DNA of 64,000 nucleotides from an uncultured Cohaesibacter sp. GTDB taxonomy: Bacteria; Pseudomonadota; Alphaproteobacteria; Rhizobiales; Cohaesibacteraceae. Location: the NCBI RefSeq assembly GCF_963678225.1, contig NZ_OY782763.1, forward strand, positions 1,178,001 through 1,242,000, given 5' to 3'. The notes under the pieces were generated by a model that worked only from the letters and a program-made list of their open reading frames with translations, was not told the origin of the DNA and searched no databases. This document shows positions 34,231-38,622 of the stretch, piece by piece (positions within the stretch are counted from its first letter, which is position 1; every line of letters starts with the position of its first letter). A program made the position numbers and the translations under genes.

Positions 34231-35208
34231 GTGGTAGCCACAACAGGCATGAAAATCTGGGTTCTGAGTGACGGCAAGCCTGGCGACGAGAATCAATGCC
34301 TCAGCGTTGCCGAGCGATTGGGCGGCTCCATCGAGCTGCGCCATGTAGCCCCGGCAGCGCCGTGGGTCTGGCTCATGCCCCATGGGCCGATACCACCATC
34401 TGACAGCCCCCAAAAGCCAGGCTCCCCCATTCATGGCCCCTTTCCCGATGTGGCCATAGCATCGGGCCGCAGAACCGTGGCCTATTTGAGAAAGCTCAAG
34501 AAAGTCAGCCCGCAAACCATAACGGTCTTTCTCAAGGACCCGCGCCTTTCTTCTTTCAATGCGGATCTTGTCTGGGTTCCCTTCCATGACAAACGCCGGG
34601 ATTCTCGCACAATCGTCTCCCTGACCGGCCCGACCCGCATTACACCTGAACACTTGGCCTCAGCCAGAACCCGGGCCCCGCAAGCCCTGCTTCATCTGCC
34701 AGCGCCGCGTGTGGCGCTTATTCTGGGTGGCGACACGGCAAAGGAAAAGTTCGGCGAGCAGGCATCAAAAAGGCTTGCGCACTATCTAAGCCATGAGCTG
34801 CCCCCGCATGTTTCCGTGATGGTCACCCCATCCAGACGGACGCCGGAGCACTTGAAAGCCGCCGTTGAAAAGGCGCTCATAGGACACCCTCACTGGATCT
34901 GGGATGAGCAGGGCGACAATCCATATTTCTCGATGCTCGCCCTTGCCGATGCGATCATCGTGACTGCTGATTCTCATTCCATGCTTTCGGATGTTCTATC
35001 GAGCGAAGTTCCTGTTTACATTTTCGAGCCGGATGCCTATCCAAAGAAGCTGAAACGGACGATCAATCAACTCGTCCAACACCCTTTTGTACAACTTCTC
35101 CCCGCCCCTCTTGAAACGGGAGCACGGCCCGCAATAGATTCAACAGAACTGATAGCAGAGGAAATCCGGCTTCTGCTCAACCCGACCCCTCTTAAAGGAT
35201 CTCAATGA
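34231..35208 (+). CDS. ELM1/GtrOC1-like family protein (putative nucleoside-diphosphate sugar-binding)
   Basis: A 325-residue protein of the 'mitochondrial fission ELM1' family: MKIWVLSDGKPGDENQCLSVAERL at the start, FPDVAIASGRRT, LGGDTAKEKFGE, and ADAIIVTADSHSMLSDVLSS with VPVYIFEPD near the end. The bacterial members resemble GT-B glycosyltransferases in fold, and the plant protein ELM1 has an unrelated-looking cell role. The biochemical function here is unknown. The GTG start at 34231 has AGGAGA eight bases upstream, better than the ATG at 34249. It runs directly into trxB, with its stop overlapping an in-frame trxB start option. Confidence 0.82.
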   Translation: MVATTGMKIWVLSDGKPGDENQCLSVAERLGGSIELRHVAPAAPWVWLMPHGPIPPSDSPQKPGSPIHGPFPDVAIASGRRTVAYLRKLKKVSPQTITVFLKDPRLSSFNADLVWVPFHDKRRDSRTIVSLTGPTRITPEHLASARTRAPQALLHLPAPRVALILGGDTAKEKFGEQASKRLAHYLSHELPPHVSVMVTPSRRTPEHLKAAVEKALIGHPHWIWDEQGDNPYFSMLALADAIIVTADSHSMLSDVLSSEVPVYIFEPDAYPKKLKRTINQLVQHPFVQLLPAPLETGARPAIDSTELIAEEIRLLLNPTPLKGSQ

Positions 35209-35255
35209 AGCGGAGACCGCTCCTCTTCATGGCCATATCAAAGAAAGTTAATCCG

Positions 35256-36200
35256 ATGCATAGCAAAGTCTTGATCATTGGCTCTGGACCAGCAGGGTAC
35301 ACAGCCGCCATTTATGCTGCCCGCGCCATGCTTGAGCCGACGCTTGTTGCCGGTATGCAGGAAGGCGGTCAGTTGACCATCACCTCCGAGCTGGAAAACT
35401 ACCCCGGCTTCGCTGAAGAAATCCAGGGCCCGTGGCTGATGGAGCAAATGAAGGCTCAGGCCAAGAATGTTGGCACCAACCTTGTCTCGGATATCATCAC
35501 CGAAGTCGACCTCACCTCACGCCCCTTCAAGGCAAAAGGCGATTCTGGCGCAGACTATACCGCCGACAGCATCATCATCGCCACGGGCGCGCAGGCGCGT
35601 TGGCTGGGCATGGAAACCGAAGAGAAATTCAAGGGCTTCGGCATCTCCGCCTGTGCCACATGCGATGGCTTCTTCTATCGTGGCAAGGAAGTACTTGTCA
35701 TCGGAGGCGGCAACACCGCTGTGGAAGAGGCACTCTATCTCACGCACCATGCAAACAAGGTGACGGTCATCCATCGCCGCGATGAATTCCGCGCCGAGAA
35801 GATCCTGCAGAACCGCCTTGAGAAGAACCCGAAAATCGAAGTGATCTGGGACTCCGTGGTTGAGGAATTCATCGGCAAGGAAGGCTTCCCGCCAAGCGTG
35901 ACCGGCGCCAAGCTACGCAATGTCAAAACCGGTGAGATAACCGATATCACCGCTGACGGCATTTTCGTTGCCATTGGCCATGCGCCAGCTGTTGAGCTGT
36001 TTAAGGACACGCTGAAAATGAAGGAAAACGGCTATATCTGGACCGCACCTGATTCGACAGTGACCTCAATTCCGGGCGTTTTTGCCGCAGGAGACGTCAC
36101 CGATGACAAGTACAGACAGGCCGTAACGGCGGCCGGTTTGGGCTGCATGGCCGCTTTGGAAGCCGAACGCTTCCTTGCAGAACAAGAAGACGCTGAATAA
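35256..36200 (+). CDS. trxB: Thioredoxin-disulfide reductase
   Basis: About 314 residues. FAD binding: VLIIGSGPAGYTAAIYAARA; redox-active pair in ACATCDGFF (Cys133, Cys136); NADPH-binding GGGNTAVEEALYL with HRRDEFRAE; and GVFAAGDVTD. It passes NADPH electrons to thioredoxin in the cytoplasm. The ATG at 35256 matches the family N-terminus. An in-frame ATG at 35205 has a good AAAGGA site and overlaps the upstream stop by ATGA, so a form with 17 extra residues is possible. trxB beside lsrB is a conserved Rhizobiales pairing, and LsrB is known to respond to redox in some species. Confidence 0.97.
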   Translation: MHSKVLIIGSGPAGYTAAIYAARAMLEPTLVAGMQEGGQLTITSELENYPGFAEEIQGPWLMEQMKAQAKNVGTNLVSDIITEVDLTSRPFKAKGDSGADYTADSIIIATGAQARWLGMETEEKFKGFGISACATCDGFFYRGKEVLVIGGGNTAVEEALYLTHHANKVTVIHRRDEFRAEKILQNRLEKNPKIEVIWDSVVEEFIGKEGFPPSVTGAKLRNVKTGEITDITADGIFVAIGHAPAVELFKDTLKMKENGYIWTAPDSTVTSIPGVFAAGDVTDDKYRQAVTAAGLGCMAALEAERFLAEQEDAE

Positions 36201-36275: not shown

Positions 36276-36310
36276 GGGCTACGCTTGAATCCGCATATCT
36301 GGCGTAGCCC
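36276..36310. repeat. Inverted repeat between trxB and lsrB
   Basis: GGGCTACGC (36276-36284) and GCGTAGCCC (36302-36310) are perfect complements around 17 bases. No T-run follows. It may be the trxB 3' structure or part of lsrB control; its right arm touches the LysR-type box at 36309. Confidence 0.5.
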
Positions 36311-36411: not shown

Positions 36412-37302
36412 ATGGATTGGGACAAACTACGCATTTTTCATGCGGCCGCCGACGCTGGCAGCTTCACGCACGCCGGCGACAAATTGCATATGAGCCAATC
36501 CGCGATTTCCCGACAGGTTAGCGCTCTGGAATCGGACCTAGGGGTTACACTATTCCACCGACATGCACGCGGTCTCATCCTGACGGAACAGGGTGAGCTT
36601 CTCTACCGCACAGCCCATGACGTGCTCATGAAGCTGGAAACCGTCCGCACCCATTTGACCGACTCCAAGGAAAAGCCGACCGGCGAGTTGCGCGTCACCA
36701 CTACCGTGGGTCTTGGGTCGGCCTGGCTGACCTCGCATCTGGCCGAATTCATGGAGCTTTATCCCGGCATCGCGCTCACGCTCTTGCTTGAGAACGAGGA
36801 TCTCGATCTTGGCATGCGGCAGGCCGACGTGGCGATCCGGTTGCACCAGCCGACACAGCCCGATCTCATTCAGCGCAAGCTCTTCACGGTGCATTTTCAT
36901 ATGTACGCCTCAGCCAGCTATTTGAAGAAATTCAGCCAACCCCGCTCCATGGATGAACTGGAACAGCATCGACTGATCTGCTTTGGCGACAACCACCCCA
37001 ACTATCTCAAGGACGTCAACTGGCTCGAAACAGCCCAGATGCCTCCGGGCAAAAAGCGTCAGATGGCGCTGAAGGTCAACAACCTGCTGGGCATTCGTCA
37101 TGCGGTGATGCGTGGTGCGGGCATCGCGATTCTTCCCGATTACGTGGTTCATCCTCGCGATGAGATGATTCAGCTGCTGCCAAGTGTGGAAATGCCAAGT
37201 TTCGAAACCTATTTTGTGTATGCGGCAGAGCTCAGAAATTCGATGCGCATTAATGCTGTACGCGATTTTCTGCTGTCAAAAGCAGCTAGCTGGCATTATT
37301 AA
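36412..37302 (+). CDS. lsrB: LysR family regulator, LsrB/VtlR type
   Basis: A 296-residue protein. Winged helix: MDWDKLRIFHAAADAGSFTH, then KLHMSQSAISRQVSALESDLG and RHARGLILTEQGELL; the rest is the effector domain (TTTVGLGSAWLTSHLAEF, GMRQADVAIRLHQPTQPDL). The trxB-adjacent position and sequence fit LsrB of Sinorhizobium/Agrobacterium and VtlR of Brucella, which govern LPS, stress and host traits; VtlR is known to activate an AbcR small RNA. A good GGAGGAAAC site precedes the ATG. The downstream gap holds an AbcR-like RNA gene with a matching box, so the regulator-RNA pair appears preserved here. Confidence 0.85.
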   Translation: MDWDKLRIFHAAADAGSFTHAGDKLHMSQSAISRQVSALESDLGVTLFHRHARGLILTEQGELLYRTAHDVLMKLETVRTHLTDSKEKPTGELRVTTTVGLGSAWLTSHLAEFMELYPGIALTLLLENEDLDLGMRQADVAIRLHQPTQPDLIQRKLFTVHFHMYASASYLKKFSQPRSMDELEQHRLICFGDNHPNYLKDVNWLETAQMPPGKKRQMALKVNNLLGIRHAVMRGAGIAILPDYVVHPRDEMIQLLPSVEMPSFETYFVYAAELRNSMRINAVRDFLLSKAASWHY

Positions 37303-37382
37303 ACGCTAACTTAAGCCTTTTTAGAAGATATATTGCGCCCATGAGTTATGGCTCATGGGCGTTTACGTATTTAAACCTATAT

Positions 37383-37401
37383 TTATGCACCAAACGCATA
37401 A
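37383..37401 (+). promoter_or_regulatory. LysR-type box upstream of the AbcR-like RNA
   Basis: TTATGC-ACCAAAC-GCATAA is a perfect 6-bp inverted repeat that contains T-N11-A. Its centre (37392) is about 65 bases before the predicted RNA start, the standard place for a LysR recognition site. A -35-like TTGAAA (37422-37427) and -10-like CATATA (37445-37450), 17 bases apart, follow. Confidence 0.6.
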
Positions 37402-37456
37402 CAGAACTGCATCCGCGCACATTGAAAACCGTCTATTTAATAGGCATATATGCCTC

Positions 37457-37592
37457 AGCTGAAGGCAATAATCGTTGCTAACCTCCTCCCTGCGACGATG
37501 TTTGTAGCCAGCTGTTCCCCTCTGGAAGGTGATTGCTCCGCACTTTTGTGCGGAATAAACTTTATAAGCCGGACTTTTGTCCGGCTTTTTTT
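37457..37592 (+). ncRNA. abcR: AbcR-family (alpha-r15-like) trans-acting small RNA candidate
   Basis: Predicted start near 37457 from the promoter-like hexamers. An 8-bp stem (37471-37478 with 37492-37499) displays a 13-base loop with CCTCCTCCC (37482-37490), an anti-Shine-Dalgarno sequence. A second C-rich patch, TTCCCC (37515-37520), lies in a small CCAG/CTGG loop; it matches the second targeting motif I recall for AbcR RNAs. Two further stem-loops follow: TCCGCAC-TTTT-GTGCGGA, and the terminator AAGCCGGAC-TTTT-GTCCGGCTT with a T-run. No open frame fits here. AbcR RNAs use Hfq and repress ABC-transporter and other mRNAs, and in Rhizobiales sit beside lsrB/vtlR, as here. Only one copy is seen; many relatives have two. 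Confidence 0.75.
37566..37592 (+). terminator. Terminator of the AbcR-like RNA
   Basis: AAGCCGGAC-TTTT-GTCCGGCTT followed by TTTTT: a textbook intrinsic terminator with a 9-bp stem. Confidence 0.88.
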
Positions 37593-37908
37593 CTTTCTAT
37601 CTACTTTTCCAATTATTACCGAAATTTGAATAAATAATAGGCATGGCTATTATTTCAACAAAGAGCGCTATGCGCTTTTGTGAATTCTTGTCATGAAATC
37701 CGAATAGTGGCATTTGAAAAAATACCTATTCTTAAAATCAGACAAATGCCTTTCTCTCCTTGTCCCGCTAGCGCTCACCACGCAATCAAACCGGCAGCTA
37801 TCCCATCGCGATAGACAAACAAAAGGGCTGGCATGCGCGGAGTATCCCACACAGTACCAGCCCATTTAAACGTCGAAGCCCATCTGAGCCGACGCCGCAG
37901 AAGCCAAA

Positions 37909-38622
37909 TCAGGCAAAAATGGTTGCCCAGCCCCAGGAGATTGGCATGACAATCCAGAGCGCCGGGATCATGTTGGCCACAGGAAACTGCTTGATACCGC
38001 AAATGCGCATCCCCACAGCCAGCATGATGCAGCCACCACAAGCCGAGAAGTCAGCCAGCATATCCGGCGTTGTCAGGGGAATGATCAGCACCGAAGCGAA
38101 AAAGAACAGCGCCTGAACGATAAGCTGGGGAACTGCAAGCAAGGCAATAATGTACCCCATGGTCGCAGCGAAGATCATGGCGGTGAACAGGTCCAGGATG
38201 GCCTTGACGACCAACAGGGTCGTATCCCCGGTCATGCCTTCCACCATTGCGCCATAAATGCCTGTCGCACTCATGGAGAACAGCACCAGCAGCGCCACGA
38301 ACCGGTTCAGGAATTCATCCTGAGGCAGCGCACCATCCGATGGTGTCAGTTTGGACAGGAGGCTCTTGGTCTTGAAAGACATTTTGTGAATGGACTTTTC
38401 GAGGTCGAAAATCTCGCCCGCCAGTGAGCCGACAATCAATGCAAGCACCACCGGAGCCAAGGCCACCACCTTGCCTGCCATGGCAACCCCAAGCCCCATG
38501 GAGGCAATGCCGAACACCATCGGCATATTCTGTTTAACATTTTCCTTGATTTTGGCACCGATGAAAGCGCCGACAACGGAGCCGACTACAATCGCGGCGC
38601 CATTAATGAGAGGACCTATCAT
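37909..38622 (-). CDS. DUF554 family membrane protein
   Basis: A 237-residue, mostly hydrophobic protein with about seven membrane segments. It begins MIGPLINGAAIVVGSVVGAFIG and contains GLGVAMAGK, LIVGSLAGEIFDLE, FNRFV-like LNRFVALLVLFSMSATGIYGAM, and a late SACGGCIMLAVGMRICGIKQFPVANMIPAL, all characteristic of DUF554 (YdfK/YqgA-type) inner-membrane proteins. The function is not known; transport has been assumed. AAGGA lies eight bases before the ATG. The DUF190 gene next to it is on the same strand but separated by more than 150 bases. Confidence 0.88.
   Translation of the reverse strand: MIGPLINGAAIVVGSVVGAFIGAKIKENVKQNMPMVFGIASMGLGVAMAGKVVALAPVVLALIVGSLAGEIFDLEKSIHKMSFKTKSLLSKLTPSDGALPQDEFLNRFVALLVLFSMSATGIYGAMVEGMTGDTTLLVVKAILDLFTAMIFAATMGYIIALLAVPQLIVQALFFFASVLIIPLTTPDMLADFSACGGCIMLAVGMRICGIKQFPVANMIPALWIVMPISWGWATIFA

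Follow-up and report, generated by a model that had tools for sequence, protein, structure and literature searches.

The window analyzed here is a stretch of 64,000 nucleotides on contig C1 of an uncultured Cohaesibacter sp., whose 4.94-Mb genome consists of two contigs. Three genes follow one another on its plus strand: trxB (positions 35205 to 36200), lsrB (36412 to 37302), and a small RNA (sRNA) gene of 136 nucleotides (37457 to 37592), which begins 154 bases 3′ of lsrB. The upstream neighbor trxB was taken from the open reading frame list and encodes a thioredoxin reductase (TIGR01292, 405.9 bits against a cut-off of 343.45). The LysR-type regulator gene lsrB (vtlR) was identified from the identity of its protein to those of relatives, sampled as the best 80 among 587 confirmed matches to lsrB with ∼2.5 kb on each side. 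Within these 80, a Cohaesibacter metagenome-assembled genome (MAG) protein was closest to the window LsrB (83% identity) and the remaining 79 shared 57 to 67% identity; a Rhizobium LsrB aligned over 296 amino acids at 60% identity and free of gaps. In the LsrB tree, the proteins of the window's genus and the Cohaesibacter MAG protein formed one cluster (support, 100/100). Two entries in the sample appear to carry doubtful titles. The lsrB-abcR locus titled Bacillus subtilis SK6B4 (L102) clusters with Pseudochrobactrum and is probably mislabelled or contaminated, and the LsrB titled Mesorhizobium sp. BR1-1-16 (L066) clusters with Kaistia, so that this name is probably wrong. Between lsrB and the sRNA gene, a plus-strand hairpin whose two perfect 10-base arms were checked in the sequence (37336 to 37361) probably ends the trxB-lsrB transcript, with no long T run after it. 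The convergent gene past the sRNA (37909 to 38622, minus strand; 237 amino acids) had no NCBIfam model match at 1e-3.

Five elements make up the sRNA: two hairpins with a GUUCCCCUCUGG stretch between them, then a linker rich in A and U, and finally a strong terminator. The first hairpin is long and imperfect, with a closing stem of AGCUG/CAGCU (the AGCTG stem starts at 37457), and its loop holds CCUCCUCCC (DNA, CCTCCTCCC) at 37482 to 37490, the place of the pairing motif aSD1, CUCCUCCC, which is unpaired in the predicted fold. A second C-rich motif, aSD2 or M2 (GUUCCC, UUCCCCUC; 37514 to 37522), lies between the first and second hairpins and is partly paired, as the first four bases of TTCCCCTC (37515 to 37522) are predicted to pair in a small hairpin of 4 bp. 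The identity of aSD2 in 20/20 aligned homologues is by construction, because these homologues were picked with GTTCCCCTCTG, which contains it. The second hairpin, UCCGCACUUUUGUGCGGA, spans 37537 to 37554, and the A/U-rich single strand ATAAACTTTATA precedes the stem of an intrinsic terminator with a U tail (37566 to 37593; stem, 37566 to 37587). A terminator scan of 37303 to 37700 on both strands returned two terminator-like sites (0.3 expected), one of which was this terminator with its T tail. Such 3′ ends have a reported role in Hfq binding (PMC3712013); by analogy, the 3′ end of the sRNA likely binds Hfq, and an hfq gene is present in the host genome. A first-pass annotation, made from the letters of the window, had described a structured 136-base segment with C-rich motifs and a strong terminator; its coordinates proved exact, and the motifs and the terminator were recovered.

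The RNA was predicted to fold with an energy of −53.9 kcal/mol, compared with −31.6 ± 3.5 kcal/mol for 200 shuffled sequences (z, −6.4), none of which folded as well. Covariation was assessed in an alignment, A1, of 20 sequences, 13 from the genus and seven from seven other families. Four genus copies identical over the RNA (L007, L008, L009, and L012) were left out, as was L024, from the same family but another genus, which has no exact GTTCCCCTCTG, the string used to place the loci. RNAalifold predicted 30 pairs on A1, of which 15 showed compensatory changes. When the window fold was imposed on the 20 homologues, 88.5% of the cells were paired and 22/43 pairs had changed on both sides; in the inner five pairs of the second hairpin (helix 7), every pair showed such changes. 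None of 500 shuffles scored as high on any of five measures, with the caveat that related sequences can beat shuffles even where there is no structure. Slid controls were 31 to 50% paired, a comparison that favors the structure because it was taken from one of the aligned sequences.

The first-pass annotation had assigned the segment to the AbcR family and proposed an Rfam search for AbcR/alpha-r15 as a check. This search matched RF02345 (ar15) over all model positions (1 to 112; E value, 3.4e−5 in 401 bases), but with 33.2 bits it stayed below the cut-off of 40. The sRNA was the top-scoring of the places scored in the host genome, followed by a paralogue described below (27.4 bits). The same search at E values up to 10 gave hits in 12/14 named control genomes, none above the cut-off, so that the Rfam score alone would not settle AbcR identity. 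In view of these hits, weak ar15 hits elsewhere in the host genome (18.4 and 13.6 bits) were regarded as noise. At the Rfam gathering threshold, the whole window yielded tRNA only. Sixteen sub-threshold matches fell at 37300 to 37700, including ar15 and ar14; the other families were set aside, the stronger ones sitting mainly on the terminator. Since the cut-off was missed, the sRNA is not claimed for the curated family and is instead regarded as an orthologue of AbcR type because of other traits: the gene order trxB-lsrB/vtlR-abcR, reported for A. tumefaciens (PMC7486931) and present at the window locus, both pairing motifs, the distance to a box for LsrB, an Hfq-type 3′ end together with hfq, and continuity with loci that do exceed the Rfam cut-off. 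On these traits, drawn from sequence comparison, we conclude with high confidence that the sRNA is a Cohaesibacter AbcR1 orthologue, as first suggested.

A covariance model, R1, built from A1 (the genus plus seven other genomes) found the main copy in 17/18 genus genomes with 133 to 147 bits; the 18th genome is 64% complete. Across 150 candidates scored per genome, the listed matches besides the paralogue all had 34.3 bits or less and were likewise taken as noise. Among the best 80 of 587 lsrB loci, R1 gave 83 matches in total. Six on the minus strand were left out (L045, L047, L074, L095, L101, and L106), which left 77 on the plus strand, all downstream of lsrB and spread over 71/80 loci, or over 69/80 if the two weak ones, in L114 (22.4 bits) and L115 (19.8 bits), which may be noise, are disregarded. 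No plus-strand match downstream of lsrB was found in nine of the 80 (L047, L048, L050, L052, L055, L065, L101, L106, and L111), in a search whose ∼2.5-kb flanks and E value limit of 0.01 would miss more distant or weaker copies. In Faunimonas pinastri (L101), a minus-strand match of 32.6 bits (1 to 108), truncated where the locus ends, lies ∼2.4 kb upstream of lsrB and has both pairing motifs; the minus-strand matches in L106 and L047 are weaker. A search of a plasmid collection with the sRNA gave no match.

Twelve source sequences were rescanned with Rfam. R1 and above-cut-off ar15 matches (44 to 115 bits) coincided in six (L039, L053, L054, L073, L087, and L105), and no above-cut-off ar15 match was present in the other six (L001, L002, L036, L043, L046, and L064), which indicates that Rfam under-covers these families. 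The literature consulted places alpha-r15 in Rhizobiaceae and Brucellaceae. Of seven rescanned genomes from outside these two families, two exceeded the Rfam cut-off (L039 and L054) and five did not (the window's own, L036, L043, L046, and L064). Both pairing motifs and the LsrB box are kept across families.

The box, GCAT-AAC-AG-AAC-T, occupies positions 37396 to 37408, −61 to −49 from the sRNA start at 37457. The LsrB site described for S. meliloti abcR1, GCAT-N3-TG-N3-T, lies at −61 to −49 (PMC8844928); the position thus agrees exactly, and one base differs (AG for TG). In its WG form, the box was present in 17/17 genus sequences, at −61 in 15 and −62 in two; 15 read AG and two read TG. Among the best 80 of 587 loci, GCAT-N3-NG-N3-T was found upstream of 67/77 R1 matches, compared with 64/3850 random 40-base windows, and the strict TG form upstream of 50/77, compared with 19/3850, counts that are not independent events given the shared ancestry of related species. 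In 47 of the 67 boxed matches the box began at exactly −61, and the variable base was T in 50, A in 16, and G in one. As AG is common both in the genus and among relatives, the variant is ordinary. In the window at large, the 13-base WG pattern occurred 27 times (25.5 expected) and GCAT-N8-TGC 17 times (20.8 expected), which makes such patterns useless for discovery alone; the evidence lies in the place of the box. Downstream of it is a promoter core, TTGAAA-N17-CATATA (37422 to 37450; TTGAAA at 37422 to 37427 and CATATA at 37445 to 37450). The promoter-like hexamers noted in the first-pass annotation were borne out by conservation, TTG and GCATATA being held at this place in 17/17 genus sequences, but a generic σ70 scan did not list the core, its hexamers being too weak.

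Published accounts differ on whether LsrB controls AbcR. In S. meliloti strain 2011, AbcR1 is reported to be lost without LsrB (PMC8844928), and in S. meliloti 1021 the AbcR RNAs are reported as unchanged without lsrB (PMC7486931). A candidate LsrB site also lies upstream of lsrB itself, where an inverted repeat, GGGCTACGC...GCGTAGCCC (36276 to 36310, plus strand), was found in 10/17 genus sequences. Inside it, GCATATCTGGCGT (36293 to 36305) matches the published consensus for LsrB exactly (PMC8844928), and this strict consensus occurs upstream of lsrB in 12/17 genus sequences. In addition, CCAAACGCATAACA is present both at 36309 and, upstream of the sRNA, at 37390. The repeat, the exact consensus, and the recurring string suggest that LsrB could regulate its own gene, as has been reported for the trxB-lsrB operon of A. 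tumefaciens (PMC11975290).

Other origins for these features were considered. The region could belong to the lsrB mRNA as its 3′ untranslated end, yielding an RNA by processing and having no promoter of its own, since it lies on the same strand 154 bases 3′ of lsrB and the generic promoter scan was blank here. Set against this are the hairpin at 37336 to 37361 between the two, the box and promoter core kept upstream in 17/17 genus sequences, and the spacing in relatives, where the gap between lsrB and the sRNA ranges from ∼90 to 1450 bases among the best 80 of 587 loci and the distance from box to RNA is mostly constant; we therefore consider processing from lsrB very improbable. A chance cluster of hairpins or a bare terminator region with no functional RNA would fit an Rfam score below the cut-off and the similarly weak scores that several unrelated families obtain through the terminator. 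It would not account for the fold z of −6.4 together with compensatory changes, or for both motifs and the box being kept across families, and this explanation is given next to no credence.

The sRNA might instead belong to another family with anti-Shine-Dalgarno loops, resembling NfeR1 or ar14, and lie beside lsrB by chance. The ar14 model, which we take to represent NfeR1, matched at full length with 25.4 bits, a score that falls 33 bits short of its cut-off (58.8) and also below that of ar15. The NfeR1 RNA is also described as LsrB-activated and as carrying anti-Shine-Dalgarno motifs (PMC10746234); the place beside lsrB and the coincidence with above-cut-off ar15 loci fit ar15, however, and membership in this other family is highly unlikely.

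The AbcR1 orthologue lies singly beside lsrB, and the first-pass annotation had contrasted its single copy with the tandem pairs of relatives. One copy is indeed all that the window holds, but the genome carries a second, and the supposed departure from relatives did not stand: in 66 of the 71 positive loci among the best 80 of 587, the stretch of ∼2.5 kb on each side held one match. The other five, with two matches (L087, L093, L099, and L104) or three (L105), all fell within one seven-row Rhizobiaceae clade. The second host-genome copy is unlinked (C2:35122 to 35256; positions 1457 to 1591 of locus L002) and scored 97 bits with R1. Second copies were present in 8/18 genus genomes (96 to 103 bits), and in nine of the 17 genomes with the main copy, that copy was alone. 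Multiple AbcR copies per genome are stated for Rhizobiaceae and Brucellaceae (PMC3712013), a trait that the host genome shares with its two. In six aligned second copies, GUUCCCCUCUGGAAGGUGAUUGC and the tail were kept and aSD1 was lost. In place of the first loop, the host copy has GGGU-AUUG-ACCC, and other hairpins are present in G003, G006, and, by eye, G014. Seven of the eight second copies were compared for their surroundings and occupied at least three different neighborhoods. A paralogue likewise driven by LsrB was considered and dropped: judged by eye in seven of the eight second copies, GCAT-N8-TG was seen near −60 in L002, L031, and L032 only and not in L033, L034, L035, and L141, and the promoter cores of second copies were unclear.

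Compared with AbcR1 (alpha-r15) of S. meliloti, the Cohaesibacter sRNA has aSD1, CUCCUCCC, and aSD2, UUCCCCUC, in matching parts of the RNA and the LsrB box at the same −61 to −49 (PMC8844928). It differs in having no adjoining tandem AbcR2, in the AG of its box, in its 136 nucleotides with an extra internal stem, against 112 Rfam model positions, and in its score below the Rfam cut-off. Brucella abortus AbcR1 and AbcR2 are likewise reported as two unlinked copies with M1 and M2 in matching parts of the RNA (PMC5461406). M1 is given as CUCCCA in that species (PMC5461406), compared with CUCCCU in Cohaesibacter, where the second copy has no M1. The AbcR2 of A. tumefaciens resembles this second copy in having kept M2 and not M1 (PMC5461406, PMC7486931); it is described as tandem with AbcR1, whereas the second Cohaesibacter copy is unlinked and has its first loop replaced by other hairpins.

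LsrB from the adjoining upstream gene would bind its box (−61 to −49) and activate transcription of the sRNA from 37457. The AbcR1 orthologue would then act in trans, probably with Hfq. Its C-rich motifs, aSD1 in the first loop and aSD2 between the hairpins, would pair with the ribosome-binding sites of nutrient uptake mRNAs, chiefly those encoding ABC-transporter binding proteins, and block their translation. In S. meliloti, either motif alone is reported to repress transporter mRNAs by such pairing (PMC8844928). That the locus encodes an AbcR1 orthologue activated by LsrB and repressing uptake mRNAs through aSD1 and aSD2 is, in our judgement, very probable. The direct basis for this reading comprises the sequence and its conservation, the predicted structure with its covariation, the gene order, the presence and place of the box, and motif complementarity. 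Its relatives provide the model by which the RNA would be transcribed, activated by LsrB, bound by Hfq, and repressive toward its targets. The literature searched contained no paper joining Cohaesibacter and small RNA.

Target prediction with the aSD1 loop, also proposed in the first-pass annotation, compared 48 substrate-binding-protein genes (PF00497, PF13458, and PF13416) with 58 controls (PF13561 and PF00126). The controls excluded L222 (the same gene as L221), L226 (lsrB), and two PF13561 and 13 PF00126 matches lacking a locus. Around predicted starts, which were set by a rule favoring strong ribosome sites, perfect complements of at least 7 bases to the aSD1 loop were found in 13/48 binding-protein genes and 0/58 controls, and to the aSD2 region in 4/48 and 1/58 (match lengths, P = 0.09). 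In a narrower window, GGGAGG, which extends the pairing with aSD1, occurred in 9/48 compared with 0/58 and GGAGG in 14/48 compared with 3/58; GAGGGG and AGGGGA, which suit aSD2, did not differ between the 48 and the 58 genes. Raw duplex energies differed between the two sets (P = 4e−5 for aSD1 and 0.003 for aSD2), but the residuals after regression on ribosome-site strength did not (P = 0.56 and 0.42, respectively). The target signal thus weakens when ribosome-site strength is taken into account, and the complementarity is suggestive only, being consistent with an AbcR role and not proof of it. As a separate observation, GAGGGGAA, the exact complement of aSD2, stands just before the probable lsrB ATG (approximately locus positions 2480 to 2495) in 23/80 of the best 80 of 587 loci, mostly Mesorhizobium-titled (for example, L054, L058, and L062); in loci with this sequence, AbcR may feed back on lsrB.

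The sRNA in itself is of a known kind and ordinary for these bacteria, one more example of modest interest; the part worth following is an LsrB that has no redox cysteines. In A. tumefaciens, oxidant sensing by LsrB is reported to proceed through C273, probably partnered by C144, and the statement in that source that the cysteines are conserved rests on three species compared (PMC11975290). In an alignment made without the A. tumefaciens sequence, the corresponding columns were residues 140 and 269 of the window LsrB. Shinella and Mycoplana have cysteines at 140, 232, and 269, which are C144, C236, and C273 minus 4, and the columns are thus very probably right. Valine occupies both positions in the window LsrB and in the other 16 of the 17 genus proteins. 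Among the best 80 of 587 LsrB proteins, 27 had both cysteines, 27 the first only, four the second only, and 22 neither. In an unrooted LsrB tree of 97 rows, the 39 that have neither cysteine all fell on one side of a single well-supported branch (98/91), together with the four second-only rows. A downstream sRNA match was present in 17 of the 22 neither-cysteine loci (one of them L115, a weak match), 13 of which also had the box, and the LsrB-AbcR arrangement therefore does not require the cysteine pair. No report of an LsrB without redox cysteines was found in the open-licence papers searched.

Whether LsrB on the side of Cohaesibacteraceae, Stappiaceae, and Pleomorphomonadaceae drives AbcR without the C144-C273 pair, the C144-side cysteine being a trait of Rhizobiaceae, Brucellaceae, and Phyllobacteriaceae, is in our estimate an evenly balanced proposition. 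If so, thiol sensing would be separable from the LsrB-AbcR circuit that controls uptake, and the LsrB of these bacteria would answer a different signal, for example, a bound ligand. The pairing of this regulator with this RNA, found both in the presence and in the absence of the redox cysteines, amounts to a natural experiment, which makes what LsrB senses directly testable, and a well-studied RNA controlling nutrient uptake is extended here to marine families.
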